Shown in pieces: positions 1 to 26,525 of a DNA stretch of 26,525 nucleotides. Under the pieces are notes generated by a model that searched no databases, had not been told where the DNA came from, and worked only from the letters and a program-made list of their open reading frames with translations. The stretch covers positions 1 through 26,525 of the IMG/VR virus record IMGVR_UViG_3300032285_001890. The stretch is one strand, 5' to 3'. Within the stretch, counting starts at the first letter, position 1. Each line of letters starts with the position of its first letter. A program made the translations under genes and the position numbers. This DNA is from a virus.

Positions 1-123
1 AACAAATGCAAAATCCGATTTTTCATCTTGATTTGCAATGTTGAAAATCTGGCCACTGGTGGTGTAGCGTTGCATAGGAAGCTTGGCACCAATCCAGGTT
101 TCGTCACGGCGATCGGTAATTTG
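1..123. repeat. Left copy of 123-bp terminal direct repeat
   Basis: These bases are identical to 26403-26525. The repeat lies inside the capsid reading frame, which continues through it without interruption. This is what an assembler yields from a circular or circularly permuted genome. A true short terminal repeat is possible but less likely, because it would sit inside an essential gene. Confidence 0.95.
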
Positions 124-885
124 CTTGGCATAGTCTTGTGGTACCAAATAGCCACCGTTTGCATTGGTGCCTTCTACCAATACGGCCTTGGCGGCAATTT
201 CGTCACCCGTGCGCATCCAGTGTTTGAGTGCATCCATTTGGTCATTGCTGTTACCCATGGTGGTAAGCTTTTTGGTAGCTGGTGCATTGCCTGCAACGAC
301 ACCACCACCTTTTACAGGTTCGCCTGCCATCTCTTCAATAGCGGCCTTCACTGCATCTTTGATTAATTGGTCTGACATGGTTGGTAATTCCTTTGATGTA
401 AATGTGTGTATATTGCTACTGATATTTGCAGGGCCGCTGTTGCCAGCCTGTGGCACTGCCTTCGTATCAGAAATAGCCATGGTTCGTGGTTCTGCTGGTG
501 TAGGGGTTAAACTAATCTCCCCAACAATCCATCGTTTTAATTCGCCACCATCACGCACCACTAAATGTGATAGTGCACCTGTAGATAATCCTAGCACACC
601 ACGTTTCACCAGTGCCATCACCTGCTGTGCATATTTGTGGCGTTTGTCAATTTCAATATCAACATCGATGCCTTCGCTATCAGGCTGCCACATCTTTACC
701 GTGCCAATTTGTGACTGCAAATCACTTAGGCCGTGGTCATAATATACTGGCATGCCAACAAATGATCGTGTATCACCAAAATCTGTTTGTGCAGTAAATC
801 GATCACCCGTTAAATCTTTGCCACCAAACACCACGCCACGGCCGCGTACCACGTAATCTGCTACCTGCTTCACTGCATACTTCAT
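1..885 (-). CDS. Prohead protease-major capsid protein fusion (N-terminal part; continues at 26402)
   Basis: This reading frame starts at ATG 885, overlapping the upstream stop as ATGA. It runs off base 1 and continues from 26402 to its stop at 25731, about 518 aa in total. Residues 1 to about 140 match a serine prohead protease of the HK97 gp4 / S78 type: VYYDHG (His51), LGLSTG (Ser101) and ISLTPTPAEPR. The protease should mature the head by cleaving scaffold segments. Residues from about 170 on are the HK97-fold capsid protein, beginning with a probable scaffold-like delta segment. NANGGYLVP, typical of the start of the mature capsid core, lies at about residue 240. No stop codon separates the two parts. 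Met170 (base 378) has its own AAAGGA site, so capsid alone may also be made. Confidence 0.93.
   Translation of the reverse strand, partial: MKYAVKQVADYVVRGRGVVFGGKDLTGDRFTAQTDFGDTRSFVGMPVYYDHGLSDLQSQIGTVKMWQPDSEGIDVDIEIDKRHKYAQQVMALVKRGVLGLSTGALSHLVVRDGGELKRWIVGEISLTPTPAEPRTMAISDTKAVPQAGNSGPANISSNIHTFTSKELPTMSDQLIKDAVKAAIEEMAGEPVKGGGVVAGNAPATKKLTTMGNSNDQMDALKHWMRTGDEIAAKAVLVEGTNANGGYLVPQDYAKQITDRRDETWIGAKLPMQRYTTSGQIFNIANQDEKSDFAFV
376..394 (-). promoter_or_regulatory. Internal ribosome binding site and start for capsid-only product
   Basis: AAAGGA (bases 394-389) lies 10 nt before an in-frame ATG (378-376) at codon 170 of the protease-capsid fusion. The predicted product starts MSDQLIKDAV, like a free-standing capsid protein with its delta segment. 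Internal initiation would give capsid in excess over protease, as assembly needs. Confidence 0.6.
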
Positions 886-2198
886 TGATCCATTCCAATC
901 AGCTGGCGTGCAAAATCTCGCACTGATTTGGCCATTTCATCACGCCATGCCTGTGGTAATGCAGCAACAAAATCAGGGCCTTTGCGTTTGGCCAGTGCAA
1001 TTAGTTTTGCCTTAAATTCCTCAAATGTTACATCACCTTTATAACGACCCCAACTTGACACTGCTGCTGGCACATCATCTGGTGTGACAATTGGGAAGTT
1101 TCGTGTATCTGGCAGAACAAAATCACCTGCTGGCATTGCTTCGCGTTCTTTTGGCGTGGTGTTACGATCAGCAGCAGCACGCACTGCCATCATATCGTTT
1201 TCGATTGGCTGTGCATACTCCGAAACATTCATTGCCATTGGTTCTGCCAGCTCTTGTACATCCATTGGTTCTGCCATCATTACTGCACGCAATTGCCAAC
1301 GTAATTTTTGATGGTACATCAAACGGTCTTGCAGGAAGTTTTGCACACCATATTGCATCACCTCGCCAGCCATCATGATGCCACCATTGATGCAATCAAT
1401 AATGTACAAATTATCCATGCTAATGCTGGCAATAAGCGCATCAAGTGAATCATCAGCGGTGGTGGTATCAATTGGTTGATGCATTGCTAATTGAAACAAC
1501 GTTGCTGGTGCCTTATAATCGAGTGCACGCAATGTTTCGGCAATGCCATCAATTGCATCATCAAGTGCTTCATAGATTTGTTCAAAAAATGCATGGTATT
1601 GTGGAAAATCTTCACCTTCCACATTCCAGTGTGCAGCGTGTGTTTTGTATTGCAAAAATACCGTATTGGCTAATACTTTGCATACTTCCATGGCCAAATC
1701 AGCCTGTGTGGCTTTTACTGCCTTCATTGGTACTGCTGGTACCATACCCATCATTGGTGATGGATTAGGCATGCCATCATCACCCAATGCCACCATGTGA
1801 TTTACCAAATCTTGTGCAGTTTTGCGTGCAGTGCGAATGATTTTCATATCCGCTTCAGAGTGTCTGCTACCTGCTTTTACTTCCATCTTGTTTATCTCCT
1901 TCAAAATAGATTGCACCCAATCCCTGCCTGCATCGCCACCCCAACCATGCCATGCCTGCCAGCCACGGCCCTGATCATTCCATGTGCTGCCTTGTTTATC
2001 CACTGCATGACGTGCAAAATAACTTGCCATGCGCTGTATGGTGTCGAGTGATACCGGTTCCCTATTTGCCAATTGCCGTGCACGTGCCAACCCTACTAAC
2101 GTCATACCACGTGCACTTGCAGGTTTGGATTCGCGTACATCAAGTGCCATCTGTGCATTGCGTGCCACGTCTGCTGGTGGTCTGTACGTATCTGCCAT
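882..2198 (-). CDS. Head-cluster protein with internal Dps/ferritin-like domain
   Basis: The chosen start is ATG 2198, 5 nt after AAAGGAG; a GTG two codons earlier overlaps the binding site. The product is 438 aa with three parts. Residues 3 to about 100 carry a motif-rich region (SWARG-like ARGMTLVGLARARQL, GWQAWHGWGGDAG) that I recall from other phage head clusters without a known function. Residues about 165-308 form a Dps-like four-helix domain with HWNVEGEDF and DAIDGIAE. His190, His202, Asp217 and Glu221 have the same 12-15-4 spacing as the Dps ferroxidase ligands. The C-terminus (from about 365; SSWGRYKG, ALAKRKGPDFVAALP) is another phage-type module. The gene sits between the neck gene and the protease-capsid gene and overlaps the latter by ATGA, so a virion or assembly role is likely. 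Iron oxidation is inferred. Confidence 0.85.
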   Translation of the reverse strand: MADTYRPPADVARNAQMALDVRESKPASARGMTLVGLARARQLANREPVSLDTIQRMASYFARHAVDKQGSTWNDQGRGWQAWHGWGGDAGRDWVQSILKEINKMEVKAGSRHSEADMKIIRTARKTAQDLVNHMVALGDDGMPNPSPMMGMVPAVPMKAVKATQADLAMEVCKVLANTVFLQYKTHAAHWNVEGEDFPQYHAFFEQIYEALDDAIDGIAETLRALDYKAPATLFQLAMHQPIDTTTADDSLDALIASISMDNLYIIDCINGGIMMAGEVMQYGVQNFLQDRLMYHQKLRWQLRAVMMAEPMDVQELAEPMAMNVSEYAQPIENDMMAVRAAADRNTTPKEREAMPAGDFVLPDTRNFPIVTPDDVPAAVSSWGRYKGDVTFEEFKAKLIALAKRKGPDFVAALPQAWRDEMAKSVRDFARQLIGMDQ

Positions 2199-2222: not shown

Positions 2223-2690
2223 TTACGAAAATGCATCTTTTACGGCCTGATCTACCACTGTTTTTATTTTGCCACTATCCGCCATACGCTTGGCTATTTC
2301 ATCAGTGGTCAGCCAACGGCCCTGATGTATTGGTGCCTGCTTATTGCCAATCACATACTGTGCATAGCTGGCAGTGCTTACTGCCTGTGCTTCTGCAATA
2401 GTGCCACGTAGTACCAGGTATGACCTATTCAGCTTCTGTGATTTGCCTGCACCACGGCCGCGTACATAGGGTATTTGAATTGTGCCTTTCCTATACCCTG
2501 CCATCACAAACTTGCGCTGCTTATCGCTTACAAATCCAGGTGCACTGCCACGTGCTGGCGGTGGTGGATCGTTCAGAATTAATTCAGTTACTGCAAGGCC
2601 AGCCACCACTGGCAATACATCCTGCTGTAATTGCCTGCATTTCTCGATTAGATGCAGTGTAGCGTTCTGTACATCGATGGTGAATGGCAT
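2223..2690 (-). CDS. Probable neck/tail-completion (virion morphogenesis) protein
   Basis: This 155-aa protein starts directly after the portal-MuF stop. Residues 55-75 (FVSDKQRKFVMAGYRKG) and the later YAQYVIGNKQAP...HQGRW pattern resemble small siphovirus proteins annotated as morphogenesis or HK97 gp10-like tail-completion proteins. The family match is from memory of such motifs, not from a search. Its position after the portal and before the capsid agrees with a head or neck role. Start ATG 2690 abuts the upstream gene with no spacer, so translation is probably coupled. Confidence 0.6.
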   Translation of the reverse strand: MPFTIDVQNATLHLIEKCRQLQQDVLPVVAGLAVTELILNDPPPPARGSAPGFVSDKQRKFVMAGYRKGTIQIPYVRGRGAGKSQKLNRSYLVLRGTIAEAQAVSTASYAQYVIGNKQAPIHQGRWLTTDEIAKRMADSGKIKTVVDQAVKDAFS

Positions 2691-4751
2691 TTATGCACCT
2701 GCATCTACAATTGGCGATTCCACCAACACCAACCCAATAGCACACCTGCAATTCACGTGTGCTGGTGGTCCTGCTGTTACTTCTGGTGGCCACTGATTCT
2801 GTAGGAGTCCATCTAATGGCAGGCATACATCACAGGTAGTACTATCATTTTCTGCAATCCAAATCATAGTAGTGTTGATGCCAGCATTCAGTGCCTGATT
2901 CTGAATGGCAAACGTTTGCTGTGCTGCAGCTCGTGTGGGTTCAGTGAATGCAATGCGTTGTGCACGCAAATCACCAAACATGGCTAATTGATTGCGAATA
3001 TCATCAACGGTAATACCAACCGTGGTTTGTGCGTTGGTGATCACACTGCTAATGTAGTCACGTTCAGTGGCTGATAGGTCCTGCAGGAATGGCTGCCAGT
3101 AACTATCAATATAGGTATTCGCCTGATTAGCAATACCCTGTGTGATAATCTCATCTCCTACTACATTAGCCATGCCAGGTATGGTGCGAATGCGTTCTGC
3201 ACCTGCATCTAATACCAGCTGTGCAACATTATCTGTAAGCACGCCACGCAAATCAGTGTCAACGGCCGTATAGTCACCATTGGCAATTGCTTCTGCATTC
3301 TTATCACTTCGCGCTGCTAACTTCTTGGCTATGGCGTCGTACACCTTGCGTTCAGCTGGTGTGAGATCAGCAAGTGTGAGTGCCTTTATAAAGTGAAACA
3401 CGTGACCTATATCACTCTTTTTTTTTACGCTTTTAAGTTCTGCATAGATAAAATCAGTCATATAGCGTGGCAGTGTATCTGATTCAAACGTGGCAGCAGC
3501 ATTGCCTTTTTGTTTGTAGCGTTTCACGGCCTTGCGTTCGTATGCTTCCAAATCTGCAAGTCTACTGGCCTGTACTGCTTTTACATCAGTAAGTGATTCA
3601 TCAACAATTTCTGCACCTGTATCAACGTTGATGCCAGTCACATCAGGGCCAGTGGTAGTAGGTGGCACGCCAATTGCCTCATCGATGTTGTCATAGCCTA
3701 GGATTTTCATTGCACTGCCAAGTGGTATGCCAGCCTGTACCAACTGCAACAGACTGCCAGCGCGTTGTGCTTCGTCTGTTTGAAACACGTCTAATGTTTC
3801 AGGAGTGAAATGCATCTTGTATTTGAGTGGTGCAAATACCTGCTGATTTAGTACACGTTGATAAAATGCCAATCGTGGCACAATGGTTTCACGCCAAAAT
3901 GATTGGCGATCACTATCAGCGGTGGCATAGTTTGCAGCACTTGCTTCTAACATGGTGCGTGGTACGCCAAACGTAGTAGTAATGTTGGTGGTGACCCGTT
4001 CTTGCAGTGGTACAAGTTCCATATCTTTTAGTGGAAAAGTAAGAATTTGGGTTTTAACATCACCACGAAAAAAGAAGGTTTTGAATGCATTCGATACATT
4101 CTCTACACGTGATCGCCAATCACTTTTTAACCGTTCATATTCTGGTGGCGTAATCGATTTATCTAAGCTCATGATTACTGCAGGCTGTGCACCATGTTCA
4201 AAAAATGCACTCGTAAACCGTTCCAGGTAATACGCCAGCTGTGCAGATTGCAGTGCTACTGATGCTGGTGCAATTCCACCGTATACATCATCTCTAATTG
4301 ATGGTTCGCGCCAATACACAATTTCATCAATAGTCCATGGCCCGTATATCTTGCCATTGATGTTTTGGCTAAATCGAATGCCCGTCATTACATTGTCAGA
4401 CGTTTGCAATTCAGGTTTGTATTCAACTTGTACTGATTTTGGATTCAAGAACTGAAACCCGTACAATACACGGCCGCGATACAAGCGCAGCCAAAATGCA
4501 GTGCCAGTTAGGAGTAGTGCACGTTCTGTTTGTTGAATCAGTGAATCCATTGGCGTGGCGAATGGATAATCGACGTTCACATCATTGCGTTCTAGTACAA
4601 ATGGCACAGTGCCAAGTGCATCTGAACGCAAGTTAATGGCACGGTATAGCATTGGCACTTTTTCGTATGCATCAATGGTGCCATATAATTCGCCAGCCTT
4701 CTTGGCAACACTGTACCAACCTGGTATGGCCTCGATCGCTTTATAAGTCAT
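2691..4751 (-). CDS. Portal protein fused to MuF-type head morphogenesis domain
   Basis: This is a 686-aa fusion. Residues 1 to about 385 are an HK97-type portal (LYRAINLRSDALGTVPF; IDEIVYWREPS; FGVPRTMLEA; TADSDRQSFWRETIVPRL), which forms the dodecameric DNA gate. Residues about 540-675 are a MuF / SPP1 gp7 domain: RIAFTEPTRAA, then TCDVC at 639-643 and PPAHVNCRC at 662-670, the usual metal-binding Cys/His pattern. A helical, lysine-rich linker joins them. A run of nine A in the coding strand at codons 442-445 contains the slippery heptamer A AAA AAG; a -1 shift would end the protein at about 446 aa, leaving portal alone. Start ATG 4751 follows AAAGG by about 9 nt. Portal and MuF are separate genes in many phages, but natural fusions exist. 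Confidence 0.92.
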   Translation of the reverse strand: MTYKAIEAIPGWYSVAKKAGELYGTIDAYEKVPMLYRAINLRSDALGTVPFVLERNDVNVDYPFATPMDSLIQQTERALLLTGTAFWLRLYRGRVLYGFQFLNPKSVQVEYKPELQTSDNVMTGIRFSQNINGKIYGPWTIDEIVYWREPSIRDDVYGGIAPASVALQSAQLAYYLERFTSAFFEHGAQPAVIMSLDKSITPPEYERLKSDWRSRVENVSNAFKTFFFRGDVKTQILTFPLKDMELVPLQERVTTNITTTFGVPRTMLEASAANYATADSDRQSFWRETIVPRLAFYQRVLNQQVFAPLKYKMHFTPETLDVFQTDEAQRAGSLLQLVQAGIPLGSAMKILGYDNIDEAIGVPPTTTGPDVTGINVDTGAEIVDESLTDVKAVQASRLADLEAYERKAVKRYKQKGNAAATFESDTLPRYMTDFIYAELKSVKKKSDIGHVFHFIKALTLADLTPAERKVYDAIAKKLAARSDKNAEAIANGDYTAVDTDLRGVLTDNVAQLVLDAGAERIRTIPGMANVVGDEIITQGIANQANTYIDSYWQPFLQDLSATERDYISSVITNAQTTVGITVDDIRNQLAMFGDLRAQRIAFTEPTRAAAQQTFAIQNQALNAGINTTMIWIAENDSTTCDVCLPLDGLLQNQWPPEVTAGPPAHVNCRCAIGLVLVESPIVDAGA
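3417..3423 (-). other. Candidate -1 slippery heptamer A AAA AAG in portal-MuF linker
   Basis: The coding strand reads GTA AAA AAA AAG AGT GAT. A_AAA_AAG is in the zero frame and is the heptamer used in E. coli dnaX. Slipping by -1 gives GAG then TGA, ending the protein one residue later (about 446 aa), after the portal domain and before the MuF core. I see no convincing upstream Shine-Dalgarno stimulator and only weak downstream pairing, so use is unproven. RNA polymerase slippage on A9 is an alternative. Confidence 0.45.
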
Positions 4752-4772: not shown

Positions 4773-5990
4773 CTACATAAAATCATACATTACGCTACCA
4801 TCGCCTAACATGGCATTGGCACCACTCACTGCATCCACCATATCATCATGGCTGCCATACGGAAATGCCACGGATTCATCAATGAATTGCTGGCACCATT
4901 CGCCACGTACCACACGAATCATATTTTGTTCAGCACGCGCGGCCCAAGGCATAGCGCGGTGCATCTTATCCTTTGTGACGTGATAGCCAACCAACGTGAC
5001 GTGTGCTAATTCCTGTATACGTCGCAATTCCTGCAACCCTGCCAAACCGTGTAATGCTTCCTCGACACCTTGTGTGGTATCGTCTGCTTCTGATCGCATT
5101 ACATCGATCATAATCTTGCGTACATCTGGCCATTCAGCCTTGATGCGTATGCCATCTGCAATGTACATGATGCCATCATCTGCCATAGCCACACGCACAC
5201 TAGCAGTATAGTCTGCACTATCTCGCACACTGGTGGCCAAATCCCAATAACGATACCACTGCAGGTTTGGTGGTGGTGCATCAACAATGCTAAACCACTG
5301 GCGTTTAAACAGTGCACCAGACAAATCGACAAACTGGCCATTAGCTTCCTGTTCAAACTGTTCATTCGTATAACTTGTGCGTAACGTGTGGATAAATGAA
5401 TCAGGCAAAAATACATTATCTGTGGTTTTGCTGTGAATCACTGCATAATCAGGATTACTGCTGGCATGCCATAGGTCATATATCCAATTACGGCCGCGTG
5501 GCGTGGTAGTAATCCATGCCTTGCCTGGCATTTCTCGCAATGTGGCAATGGCAATCTGCCATGCATCGATGTGCATCATGGCAGCTTCATCAAACCATAT
5601 CCAGCCAAGATTTGCACCACGTAAGCGATCAGGATTATCTGCACTCCTTAGCAATATTGTTCTATTGCCGTGCAACACAATGGTGCCTGTAGATATATTG
5701 TGCGTTTTAAGTATGCCAGCAGGCCGTGCAATATCTAATAGCATTTTGCGCGGACCATCACGTAGCATTGGGTATGTTGGTGCAACAATCATGCCTGTGC
5801 TATTTGGTGGCATGCGTAGCACTTCGATTACGCCAGCTCGTGTCTTGCCACTGCCACGACCCCCAATAAAGGCCCGAAACCGTGCTGTGCTATTCCAAAA
5901 CATCTCCTGTGGTTTCGTACATTCGCTGTGGCGTAACGTCCTGTATTGTATCTGCGTTGTTGGTGATTGCTGGTACACGTGGCGTGCCAA
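4773..5990 (-). CDS. terL: Terminase large subunit
   Basis: This 405-aa packaging motor has both domains. In the ATPase part, Walker A is GGRGSGKT (43-50), Walker B is WIWFDEA (130-136, Asp134/Glu135) and the coupling motif is TTTPRG (161-166). In the nuclease part, RYWDLA carries Asp250, and the C-terminal FPYGSHDDMVDA carries the late acidic residues (382-386). It cuts and translocates DNA into the prohead through the portal encoded just downstream. The frame opens with TTG at 5990, 101 nt inside terS. The first ATG in frame (5903) would remove the conserved KPQEMF segment, so a non-ATG start or the TTG is favoured. The exact start is uncertain. Confidence 0.95.
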   Translation of the reverse strand: MARHVYQQSPTTQIQYRTLRHSECTKPQEMFWNSTARFRAFIGGRGSGKTRAGVIEVLRMPPNSTGMIVAPTYPMLRDGPRKMLLDIARPAGILKTHNISTGTIVLHGNRTILLRSADNPDRLRGANLGWIWFDEAAMMHIDAWQIAIATLREMPGKAWITTTPRGRNWIYDLWHASSNPDYAVIHSKTTDNVFLPDSFIHTLRTSYTNEQFEQEANGQFVDLSGALFKRQWFSIVDAPPPNLQWYRYWDLATSVRDSADYTASVRVAMADDGIMYIADGIRIKAEWPDVRKIMIDVMRSEADDTTQGVEEALHGLAGLQELRRIQELAHVTLVGYHVTKDKMHRAMPWAARAEQNMIRVVRGEWCQQFIDESVAFPYGSHDDMVDAVSGANAMLGDGSVMYDFM

Positions 5991-6745: not shown

Positions 6746-7287
6746 GGATTGGTATCCTGTACAAACCGTGCACGCAAATCAGCACGCACCACATTCATAT
6801 CTATCATAGTACCAGGGCATGTTTTCTTGCTTCCTGTTTCTCTGTGGCCTAGTACAGTATTTTTTGATGGCTGCAGGCCACGCCATCTAAGTAACGTTTC
6901 TGCCACATGGTACATTGTCGTGCGTTGTTTCTCTGACCACTCATGATGATCGAAATAGCCAACCATCTCAATACCCCATGATTCATTATTCCACATGGCC
7001 GCATGTGTGCCAGGCTCGTTGATGGCAGTCATTTGCCAGATGCCATCTGGTGCAATAAACAAGTGTGGACCACTGGTCCAGCCAAGGCCGCAATAGTAAT
7101 GCATCATGCCTTGCATTGTGGCCAAACCACGCCACTGGTATTCCTGTGGCGAATAGGTGTGATGCATTACAATTGCTTTTGCCCAATTGGCAATGTTGCT
7201 ATCATATGAATAGATGTGTGTGCGAAAATCTTCAGCTGATTTCCACTGCCTAAAATCATGGCGAAATAGTGCATCTGGTGTGGTCAT
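6742..7287 (-). CDS. N-acetylmuramoyl-L-alanine amidase endolysin
   Basis: The 181-aa product is an amidase_2 / PGRP-fold enzyme that cleaves the amide bond between muramic acid and L-Ala in peptidoglycan. Visible zinc-site features are MHHT (His42/43), LGHRETG (His148) and KTCPG (Cys157), the His-His-Cys arrangement of T7-type lysozymes. There is no signal peptide and no separate cell-wall-binding domain, so it should depend on the holin for export. The start at 7287 has GAAGG 7 nt upstream and overlaps the preceding gene as ATGA. Lysis genes follow in order amidase, XhlA-like, holin. Confidence 0.93.
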   Translation of the reverse strand: MTTPDALFRHDFRQWKSAEDFRTHIYSYDSNIANWAKAIVMHHTYSPQEYQWRGLATMQGMMHYYCGLGWTSGPHLFIAPDGIWQMTAINEPGTHAAMWNNESWGIEMVGYFDHHEWSEKQRTTMYHVAETLLRWRGLQPSKNTVLGHRETGSKKTCPGTMIDMNVVRADLRARFVQDTNP

Positions 7288-7958
7288 GGTTTCACCTTCT
7301 TAATGTACACGGCCAAATCATTCAGATAATCTTGCACTTCTTGAATTGACGATTTACCAGCCAAGAAACCTATGCGAATCATATAATTAATATCCCACAC
7401 TTTGGACCATACCAGATCAGCCACTTGATTTGGCGTAAGCAAACTATTTACCTGTGTTTGCAGGGCTGCTACCTGCTGTTCTAATGCAGTGGTTCGTGCT
7501 TTGACCTGCTGTACACTATTCATTGCAGCATTTGCGGTATCACTCGCACCATTGGCAGTGCTGGTGGCGCGGTCTGCAGATTGCTGTGCAGTGGCTGTGG
7601 CATTTTTCAACCCCTGCACCTGTGCTTCGTTTACATCAATGGTGGTAGATGATGGTACATTGCTTGGGTCAATATAGCCATCAATAAGCAAACGCCACTG
7701 CTGGCCGCGTGCATCACAATACCCAAACCATAGCTGGTAATTGATTACTTCTAAATAGCCATTGCAGTTTGGTTCAAACCAAATCAATTGTGGTGTGCTG
7801 CCTGGTGCTGTGCGATATACATGCGATCCCCAATCACCACCAGCAGTGGTTCTGCCAACCCATGTTTGATAGATGGCACCAGTCCTATCAATGTAAAAGT
7901 TTGCACCACCAGCACTGTAGCTTGGTGCATTGACGGGTAATCTAATTGCACTACTCAT
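7284..7958 (-). CDS. Coiled-coil protein, possible tail fibre or virion-surface protein
   Basis: This 224-aa protein has an N-terminal beta-rich part (residues 1-110, Gly/Trp/Tyr-rich) followed by an Ala/Gln/Ser-rich coiled coil (about 112-165) and a hydrophobic C-terminal helix region ending in Lys residues. I do not recognise the family. The layout suits a fibre or surface protein, yet it sits at the head of the lysis cassette. Start ATG 7958 has GGAG 9 nt upstream and follows a terminator hairpin by only about 18 nt. A lysis-associated role is also possible. Confidence 0.6.
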   Translation of the reverse strand: MSSAIRLPVNAPSYSAGGANFYIDRTGAIYQTWVGRTTAGGDWGSHVYRTAPGSTPQLIWFEPNCNGYLEVINYQLWFGYCDARGQQWRLLIDGYIDPSNVPSSTTIDVNEAQVQGLKNATATAQQSADRATSTANGASDTANAAMNSVQQVKARTTALEQQVAALQTQVNSLLTPNQVADLVWSKVWDINYMIRIGFLAGKSSIQEVQDYLNDLAVYIKKVKP

Positions 7959-8028: not shown

Positions 8029-8667
8029 TTACATTTCAAGTGATGGCAGTACAGTAATTAATTGTTGCCAGCATGATTCTGCTACCTGCCTGTGTTCAGT
8101 TTGGGTATCAGGTTTGGTGCGTACATCACAGTAGTGCAGCCATGATCTGACGGTGCCAGCCATGTACAATCTCGATACCGTCAACCCTTCTGGCAGTAGT
8201 GCACGTGCCTGCTCTTTCGCAATGCCTAGACTAATTGCCTTTTCATACATCGCTTGCGCCATGCTGGCCATTTGGGCCTGCATCATGGCCCACTCTACAT
8301 TGATGTATTTATCATCTGTGGCCACACTGTTTTGTCTGTTTTTTGTGTCCTGCAATCGTGCAGCACGATTGGTAAATCCAAGTGCCTGTGTTGGGTCTGC
8401 ATACCGTTGGCTAAACTCCTGAAACGAAAATGACCTGTGGCGTAATATCTGGCGTGCAATATCGCGTGTGGTGGTAATTTCCATGGTAATGCTGGCCATC
8501 TCGAATGGTGACCAATGTTTGTGTTTCATCAGGTAACGCATAAGCCGTGGTGCCGTGTCGTGGTTTGCCTGATTGGCAGGATTCGATACACGTGCACAAT
8601 ACACAATGAATTGTTCAAACGTCATGCCTGGCGCGTTGGTGGTGGCAATGATGGTGGCAGTGTTCAT
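8029..8667 (-). CDS. thyX: Flavin-dependent thymidylate synthase ThyX
   Basis: The 212-aa protein contains the exact ThyX signature RHRxxSxxxxSxRY at residues 76-89 (RHRSFSFQEFSQRY). It also has the N-terminal VYCARVSNP and WSPFEMASITME segments of the family. It converts dUMP to dTMP using methylene-tetrahydrofolate, NADPH and FAD, supplying thymidine nucleotides for phage DNA synthesis. Its size is close to the usual 220-250 aa. It overlaps the preceding gene as ATGA and is the last gene before a strong terminator. Confidence 0.97.
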   Translation of the reverse strand: MNTATIIATTNAPGMTFEQFIVYCARVSNPANQANHDTAPRLMRYLMKHKHWSPFEMASITMEITTTRDIARQILRHRSFSFQEFSQRYADPTQALGFTNRAARLQDTKNRQNSVATDDKYINVEWAMMQAQMASMAQAMYEKAISLGIAKEQARALLPEGLTVSRLYMAGTVRSWLHYCDVRTKPDTQTEHRQVAESCWQQLITVLPSLEM

Positions 8668-25730: not shown

Positions 25731-26525
25731 CTACGATGCAGGATTCACACCATACACGAATGCTTCAGCCTGTGTCACGTCACCACCCCAACGCACGGTG
25801 CAGAAAATGGCAGTCTGGTAATTCGCCTGGTACAAGTAGGGATTGCGACTGATTTCCAAGCCAAGGTTTTCCACAAATGCATAGTAATTGAAGTTACCAA
25901 ACAAAATTGATTTGGCACTGGCACCTAATGCAGCAATCTTATCAGACACTGCCACCGGTTTGGTATACAGGCTGTTCATATCACCCATAGGAGTTGGTTG
26001 GAAGCTAAAGAAATTGCCAGTGAGTGCGCGAATAGCACCTAACGTGGTGTTACGCATTACCCAACCAACGCTGCTGGTATCGTCTGCATACCATTCAGGC
26101 AATTTGTGCACGATGTTCAAAATATCGCTAGCGTCTACACCTGACACACTGGCCAGCGTTTCCGAAACCGTGGCACGTGCCAAGATGCCATACGGTTGTG
26201 ACGATCCCGTACCAACCAATTGAAAGTTATTTAAATGACGTGCATACGCGCGGCCTACTTCGCGTGCAATGAATCCCTCCAAATCCATGGCTTGGTCACG
26301 CAACAATTGATTTGAAATCTTCATACCCAATGATGCAGTGTAGATGGTGATGGCACTGCCAGCAAACGTTGGTTCATCTTCGTTGAATGCATTCGATTCA
26401 GCAACAAATGCAAAATCCGATTTTTCATCTTGATTTGCAATGTTGAAAATCTGGCCACTGGTGGTGTAGCGTTGCATAGGAAGCTTGGCACCAATCCAGG
26501 TTTCGTCACGGCGATCGGTAATTTG
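25731..26525 (-). CDS. Major capsid domain of protease-capsid fusion (C-terminal part)
   Basis: This continues the reading frame that begins at 885 and passes through base 1, and holds the HK97-fold capsid core to the stop at 25731. Features include ETWIGAKLP, a region with GMKISNQLLRDQAMDLEGFIAREVG (residues 318-342 or so, quoted in two parts as GMKISNQLLRD and LEGFIAREVG), and VGTGSSQPYGIL, all typical of phage capsid proteins. Met at 26477 is internal, not the start. After protease removal and delta cleavage, the mature subunit would be about 280-300 aa. Confidence 0.93.
   Translation of the reverse strand, partial: QITDRRDETWIGAKLPMQRYTTSGQIFNIANQDEKSDFAFVAESNAFNEDEPTFAGSAITIYTASLGMKISNQLLRDQAMDLEGFIAREVGRAYARHLNNFQLVGTGSSQPYGILARATVSETLASVSGVDASDILNIVHKLPEWYADDTSSVGWVMRNTTLGAIRALTGNFFSFQPTPMGDMNSLYTKPVAVSDKIAALGASAKSILFGNFNYYAFVENLGLEISRNPYLYQANYQTAIFCTVRWGGDVTQAEAFVYGVNPAS
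26403..26525. repeat. Right copy of 123-bp terminal direct repeat
   Basis: These bases are identical to 1-123. Together they show that the two ends join within the capsid gene, giving a closed map of about 26,402 bp. Confidence 0.95.

Follow-up and report, generated by a model that had tools for sequence, protein, structure and literature searches.

Dps is a bacterial domain that oxidises iron and protects DNA, and the members of its family, the dodecameric mini-ferritins, form a hollow 12-mer, with the ferroxidase site located between the subunits of a dimer, and oxidise iron with H2O2. In phages, the same domain family is represented by free-standing proteins (phrog_3636; Gratiaviridae, Lactobacillus phages, Salmonella 7-11 and phiEco32-like phages). 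These are encoded by separate genes, which lie outside the head operon in the isolates examined, and in cultured phages are found among nucleotide-metabolism or other non-structural genes. Published readings of phage Dps place its action within the cell (PMC8008677, PMC6669764). The locus presented here offers a different arrangement, in which a Dps domain is built into a gene of the head operon.

Gene order and architecture of the fusion gene

The window, meaning the whole stretch of DNA analysed, is a record of 26,525 bases with identical 123-base ends (1-123 and 26403-26525, a direct terminal repeat), which fits a complete, circularly closing assembly. The virus is a small, uncultivated tailed phage, and the closest cultured matches of its TerL and major capsid protein are only about 25-31% identical. 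The genes follow each other in the order TerL, portal-MuF, 155-aa gene, Dps-fusion gene and protease-major capsid fusion:

4773-5990: TerL
2691-4751 (-): portal protein with a C-terminal Mu-F-like domain (Phage_portal 8.9e-36, Phage_Mu_F 7.5e-9)
2223-2690 (-): 155-aa head-operon gene
882-2198 (-): whole fusion gene, N module - Dps domain - C module, 438 aa (open reading frame, start context, three folded parts in the model)
1-885 (-): protease-major capsid fusion, 5' part, continuing at 26525-25731 across the terminal repeat
25731-26525 (-): protease-major capsid fusion, 3' part (phrog_10, E=1.3e-28)

The start ATG of the Dps-fusion gene is at 2198, with AGGAG 5 nt upstream, and the longest open reading frame of the gene begins with GTG at 2204. 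Its stop is overlapped by 4 nt by the ATG of the protease-capsid gene, whose 518-aa product reads through the contig ends and the terminal repeat. Elsewhere in the window, the flavin-dependent thymidylate synthase ThyX is encoded at 8029-8667 (-) (Thy1, 1.5e-41), and the product of 7284-7958 (-) resembles that of L171:2221-2994 (-). L171 is an 88-kb phage contig, also bearing the nearest outgroup free Dps, which suggests that it shares a common gene pool or host with the window.

Within the fusion gene, the following parts can be distinguished:

1869-2198 (-): N module, aa 1-110, phrog_2859 type, common to portal C-termini and to genes in scaffold/protease position
1251-1826 (-): exchangeable segment, aa ~125-316, without DNA homology to otherwise ~88% identical phages
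1275-1706 (-): Dps domain, aa 165-308 (family and fold matches)
885-1166 (-): C module, aa 345-438, dispensable

The predicted full-length model likewise contains three folded parts (about 1-105, 165-308 and 345-430) with low-confidence linkers between them. The original prediction described the Dps region as flanked by two phage-type modules, and this holds, as phrog_2859 matches aa 6-122 and the C module is also present in relatives (it is missing from L087 and L011). The position given there, between the neck genes and the protease-capsid gene, was retained on the capsid side; on the neck side the role of the 155-aa gene is only putative, as it gave zero matches among the Pfam, PHROG and NCBIfam families searched. 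The identity of the 438-aa protein as an HK97-type prohead protease was rejected, since it matches no protease family and the protease is encoded by the next gene.

Portals of three families, Mu, lambda (Phage_portal_2) and Phage_portal_3, also carry the N module at their C-terminus, and a protein bearing the XkdF protease domain contains it as well. In cultured Vibrio phages the N module begins, or directly precedes, a coiled-coil gene in scaffold position, which has the head-morphogenesis gene on one side and the capsid gene on the other. A scan of genome contigs for the host gave only three matches to the N module and no host was found. The fusion gene thus combines a position in the head operon with a module common to known head proteins; its flanking modules are head modules, and the fusion protein is probably located in or on the (pro)head.

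The Dps domain and its conservation

Several lines of evidence identify aa 165-308 as a genuine Dps domain with a complete set of ferroxidase ligands. Pfam Ferritin matches aa 175-306 (E=4.6e-16) and the phage Dps family phrog_3636 matches aa 171-307 (E=2.3e-24), while the best PDB match is the P. aeruginosa Dps PA0962 (8ff9, E=2.2e-14), in an ungapped alignment that places the four ligands opposite identical residues. Correspondingly, a profile built from 27 phage Dps domains matches Dps structures with values down to 2.7e-34. The model of the domain (pLDDT mostly around 90) presents a ferritin-like four-helix bundle (A 165-192, B 198-225, C 252-279 and D 283-308) with the short BC helix (234-238), and superposes on B. 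subtilis MrgA at 1.1 Å. In a Foldseek search, all top-ranked PDB matches were Dps, many of them at 1.1-1.6 Å and with target TM up to 0.95. The ligands themselves are spaced 12-15-4, with Trp following the first His:

1629-1631 (-): His190, ferroxidase ligand (invariance partly ascertained, position within the search pattern)
1593-1595 (-): His202, ferroxidase ligand (motif spacing, invariance)
1548-1550 (-): Asp217, ferroxidase ligand (motif spacing, invariance)
1536-1538 (-): Glu221, ferroxidase ligand (motif spacing, invariance)

None of the four varies among 27 diverse phage Dps sequences, fused or free, where the invariance of H190, and of D217 in one scan, is partly ascertained because these positions lay inside the search patterns, and H202 and E221 lay outside them. 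A chance occurrence of the motif is ruled out by the family and fold statistics. The ligand spacing claimed in the original prediction is therefore present and aligned with that of Dps; a fold unrelated to Dps, which had been named as the outcome that would contradict it, was not obtained when the model was compared with the PDB, and the three-part fusion that it proposed to look for elsewhere was found in other phages. By homology, the residues would form the inter-subunit ferroxidase site of a Dps dimer.

Purifying selection on the domain is extreme (dN/dS about 0.01). Compared with seven close relatives, dN/dS amounts to 0.007-0.018, with 21-28 silent changes but only 1-2 that alter an amino acid, and is mostly lower than in the flanks (0.07-0.15 in the C module, 0-0.16 in the N module), all these values being simple NG86 counts based on few changes. 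Ligand conservation and selection together lend indirect support to iron oxidation, and judged from the sequence a catalytically active domain is fairly likely.

Exchange of the Dps domain for a HiPIP-like domain

The DNA of five phage contigs (L011, L012, L013, L014 and L017) matches that of the window at about 83-90% identity where they cover the flanks, and in all of them homology ends at aa ~125 and restarts at aa ~316 or later. The domain filling the slot of these near-identical phages contains four invariant cysteines. In the PDB, HiPIPs are the top matches of its profile (0.0013, 0.0048 and 0.016), and PF01355 (HIPIP) matches 27 of the 37 slot-domain members, the best at 8.8e-5, with only four matched by the next family. 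With HiPIP spacing of the four cysteines and similarity at the family level, the domain can be regarded as a putative HiPIP-like Fe-S domain; its predicted structure was a failed model (pLDDT 42). In four HiPIP-type contigs (27-31 kb, possibly incomplete), a ferritin-family domain was not found.

The HiPIP-like domain of phages is widespread, with more than 560 IMG/VR stretches among the matches listed, usually behind the same N module, and is seen only weakly by PF01355. In the contigs compared here it occurs in L011, L012, L018, L020-L025, L027-L038, L040, L093 and L233-L312.

With regard to the origin of the Dps fusion, in most contigs of the group L022-L032 the gene with the N-HiPIP-C arrangement is immediately preceded by a free Dps gene, and the free Dps of this clade is the sister of the Dps of the window (99/91). 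Such a neighbour makes a move of Dps from the adjacent gene into the slot a plausible origin.

As the slot accepts either Dps or a HiPIP-like domain, the property common to these two identified fillings would be iron/redox chemistry and not one fold or shell architecture, and the exchange suggests that some phage heads carry swappable iron-handling modules. This bears on the possibility that Dps serves as the oligomerisation core, as a dimer or a shell, of a scaffold-like protein, with iron chemistry being incidental. The gene does occupy the position of scaffold or protease genes, and in a second lineage, described below, Dps lies within a protease-scaffold-like protein. A purely structural use is nevertheless weakened by the small HiPIP-like domain in the slot of near-identical phages, for which such shells are not expected, as well as by the retention of all four ligands and the low dN/dS, and we consider it improbable.

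A third type of middle segment, without recognisable iron ligands, is present in L009 and L010 (L009:2295-3611, L010:3870-5186), where the slot holds a cysteine-containing helical sequence. Its interpretation as a degenerate Dps has only a weak pairwise signal over the second half.

Iron-related domains in other head genes

Dps is also found inside proteins of about 640-690 aa in a separate lineage (within L109-L138), encoded between a portal gene (7e-47) and a capsid gene (3.9e-28). At their N-terminal end, these proteins show a weak match (7.6e-4) to a head maturation protease family. Their Dps domains group in a clade of their own (100/100), which points to an independent fusion.

In L258:2031-4190 the HiPIP-like domain, in turn, is fused N-terminally to a protease-major capsid polyprotein. 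In L221:3-1586 it has long poly-serine stretches on one side and a head-maturation-protease-like part on the other, and a Dps gene lies about 1.4 kb downstream of this fusion. In L268:2581-4644 it belongs to a minor head protein (phrog_16619), together with a pair of 'LxGQHDQxSHG' repeats and one more domain; a Dps gene follows about 0.75 kb downstream. In L093 the N, Dps and HiPIP genes all lie within 2.3 kb. In the cultured lake phage DSL-LC01, a gene named 'high potential iron-sulfur protein' by its depositors adjoins three capsid maturation protease genes, and the N module together with a HiPIP-like domain is present in two of these three.

These observations have to be weighed against the main rival explanation, according to which the fusion protein is an intracellular helper, controlling iron and peroxide in the infected cell late in infection, with no need to enter the virion and with the N and C modules providing only late expression or placement at assembly sites. 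Besides agreeing with the published interpretation of phage Dps and with the non-structural surroundings of its free genes in cultured phages, this explanation draws on the L022 clade, where free Dps genes are in the same operon without fusion, and so predicted to be co-expressed. Mere co-expression, however, needs no fusion, and at least two fusion events into different head proteins are observed, while the same slot also takes a HiPIP-like domain. Altogether, an exclusively intracellular role appears rather unlikely.

Possible role of the fusion protein

We propose that the protein takes part in head morphogenesis and carries an interchangeable iron-redox module that would remove Fe2+ and peroxide near the phage DNA, a proposal that we judge about as likely to be right as wrong. 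Through its N and C modules, the protein would be brought to the inside or the surface of the (pro)head, where the Dps domains could pair, perhaps as 12-mers, and complete the ferroxidase sites. These sites would oxidise Fe2+ with H2O2 close to the DNA, so that Fenton chemistry would be kept off it while it is packaged, stored or first injected. For the individual parts of this proposal, the case for DNA protection as the benefit is evenly balanced, and we lean slightly against retention of the protein in the mature virion. The location of free phage Dps outside the head operon in the isolates examined, fitting an intracellular role, and the L009/L010 pair with its lack of recognisable iron ligands both speak against this proposal.

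Alternatively, the head protein could load virions with iron, which would then reach the next host cell as a nutrient or serve in the manner of the Ferrojan Horse idea, a concept about tails. Head genes here do repeatedly contain one or other of two iron-binding domain types, and iron in phage particles is a theme under discussion. Nothing points, though, to exposure beyond the head or to uptake via host receptors, and the two fillings would differ greatly in capacity, with only four iron atoms per HiPIP cluster; we therefore find iron carriage very improbable.

Returning to the iron-redox module in the head, a generalisation that we would rather doubt than assert is that many tailed phages build such a module, Dps or HiPIP-like, into an exchangeable (pro)head slot, guarding or sensing the state of the DNA. 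If true, Dps and HiPIP would be two ways of meeting a single requirement of the head that has gone unrecognised until now. The Dps fusion in two lineages and the swap in near-identical genomes amount to a natural domain-swap experiment, which points to iron chemistry as a possible need of the (pro)head, in contrast to phage Dps having so far been read as an intracellular stress helper, and makes the question directly testable.

Comparison with known systems

Compared with the Dps mini-ferritins (PF00210; MrgA 2chp, PA0962 8ff9 and S. aureus Dps 2d5k), the phage domain has the same fold (1.1-1.4 Å over ~145 residues) and shares the short BC helix, the His-12-His-15-Asp-4-Glu pattern and the conserved Trp after the first ligand His, but it forms the middle of a head-operon protein of 438 aa, with a module on either side. 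The four invariant cysteines of the phage HiPIP-like domain, which is absent from the window, align with the cluster ligands of HiPIP (PF01355; 3h31, 1hpi and PioC 6xyv), whereas the phage domain has diverged and carries additional conserved residues (GAHY) at its N-terminal end. Siphophage tail tips and hubs contain iron-sulfur clusters (PMC10276861), which are likewise iron centres in phage particles; they belong to the tail and not to the head operon, and are not ferroxidases.

In the open-access literature, no paper was found that describes a Dps or HiPIP domain within a phage head protein, or the exchange between the two. A protein of this type is already deposited, and the related entries carry automatic names: A0A6J7WLL1 (uncultured Caudovirales, BFVD/UniProt, 340 aa, 'DNA-binding protein Dps') is 78% identical over ~340 columns and A0A6J7WPK9 (uncultured Caudovirales, 763 aa, 'Prohead protease') 27% over 471 columns, and several 'Prohead protease' entries are among the structural neighbours in BFVD. 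The fusion is, as far as we found, undescribed. Since Dps and phage Dps are already known and the domain represents no new fold, the interest of this locus lies in the exchange of the domain and in its recurrence.
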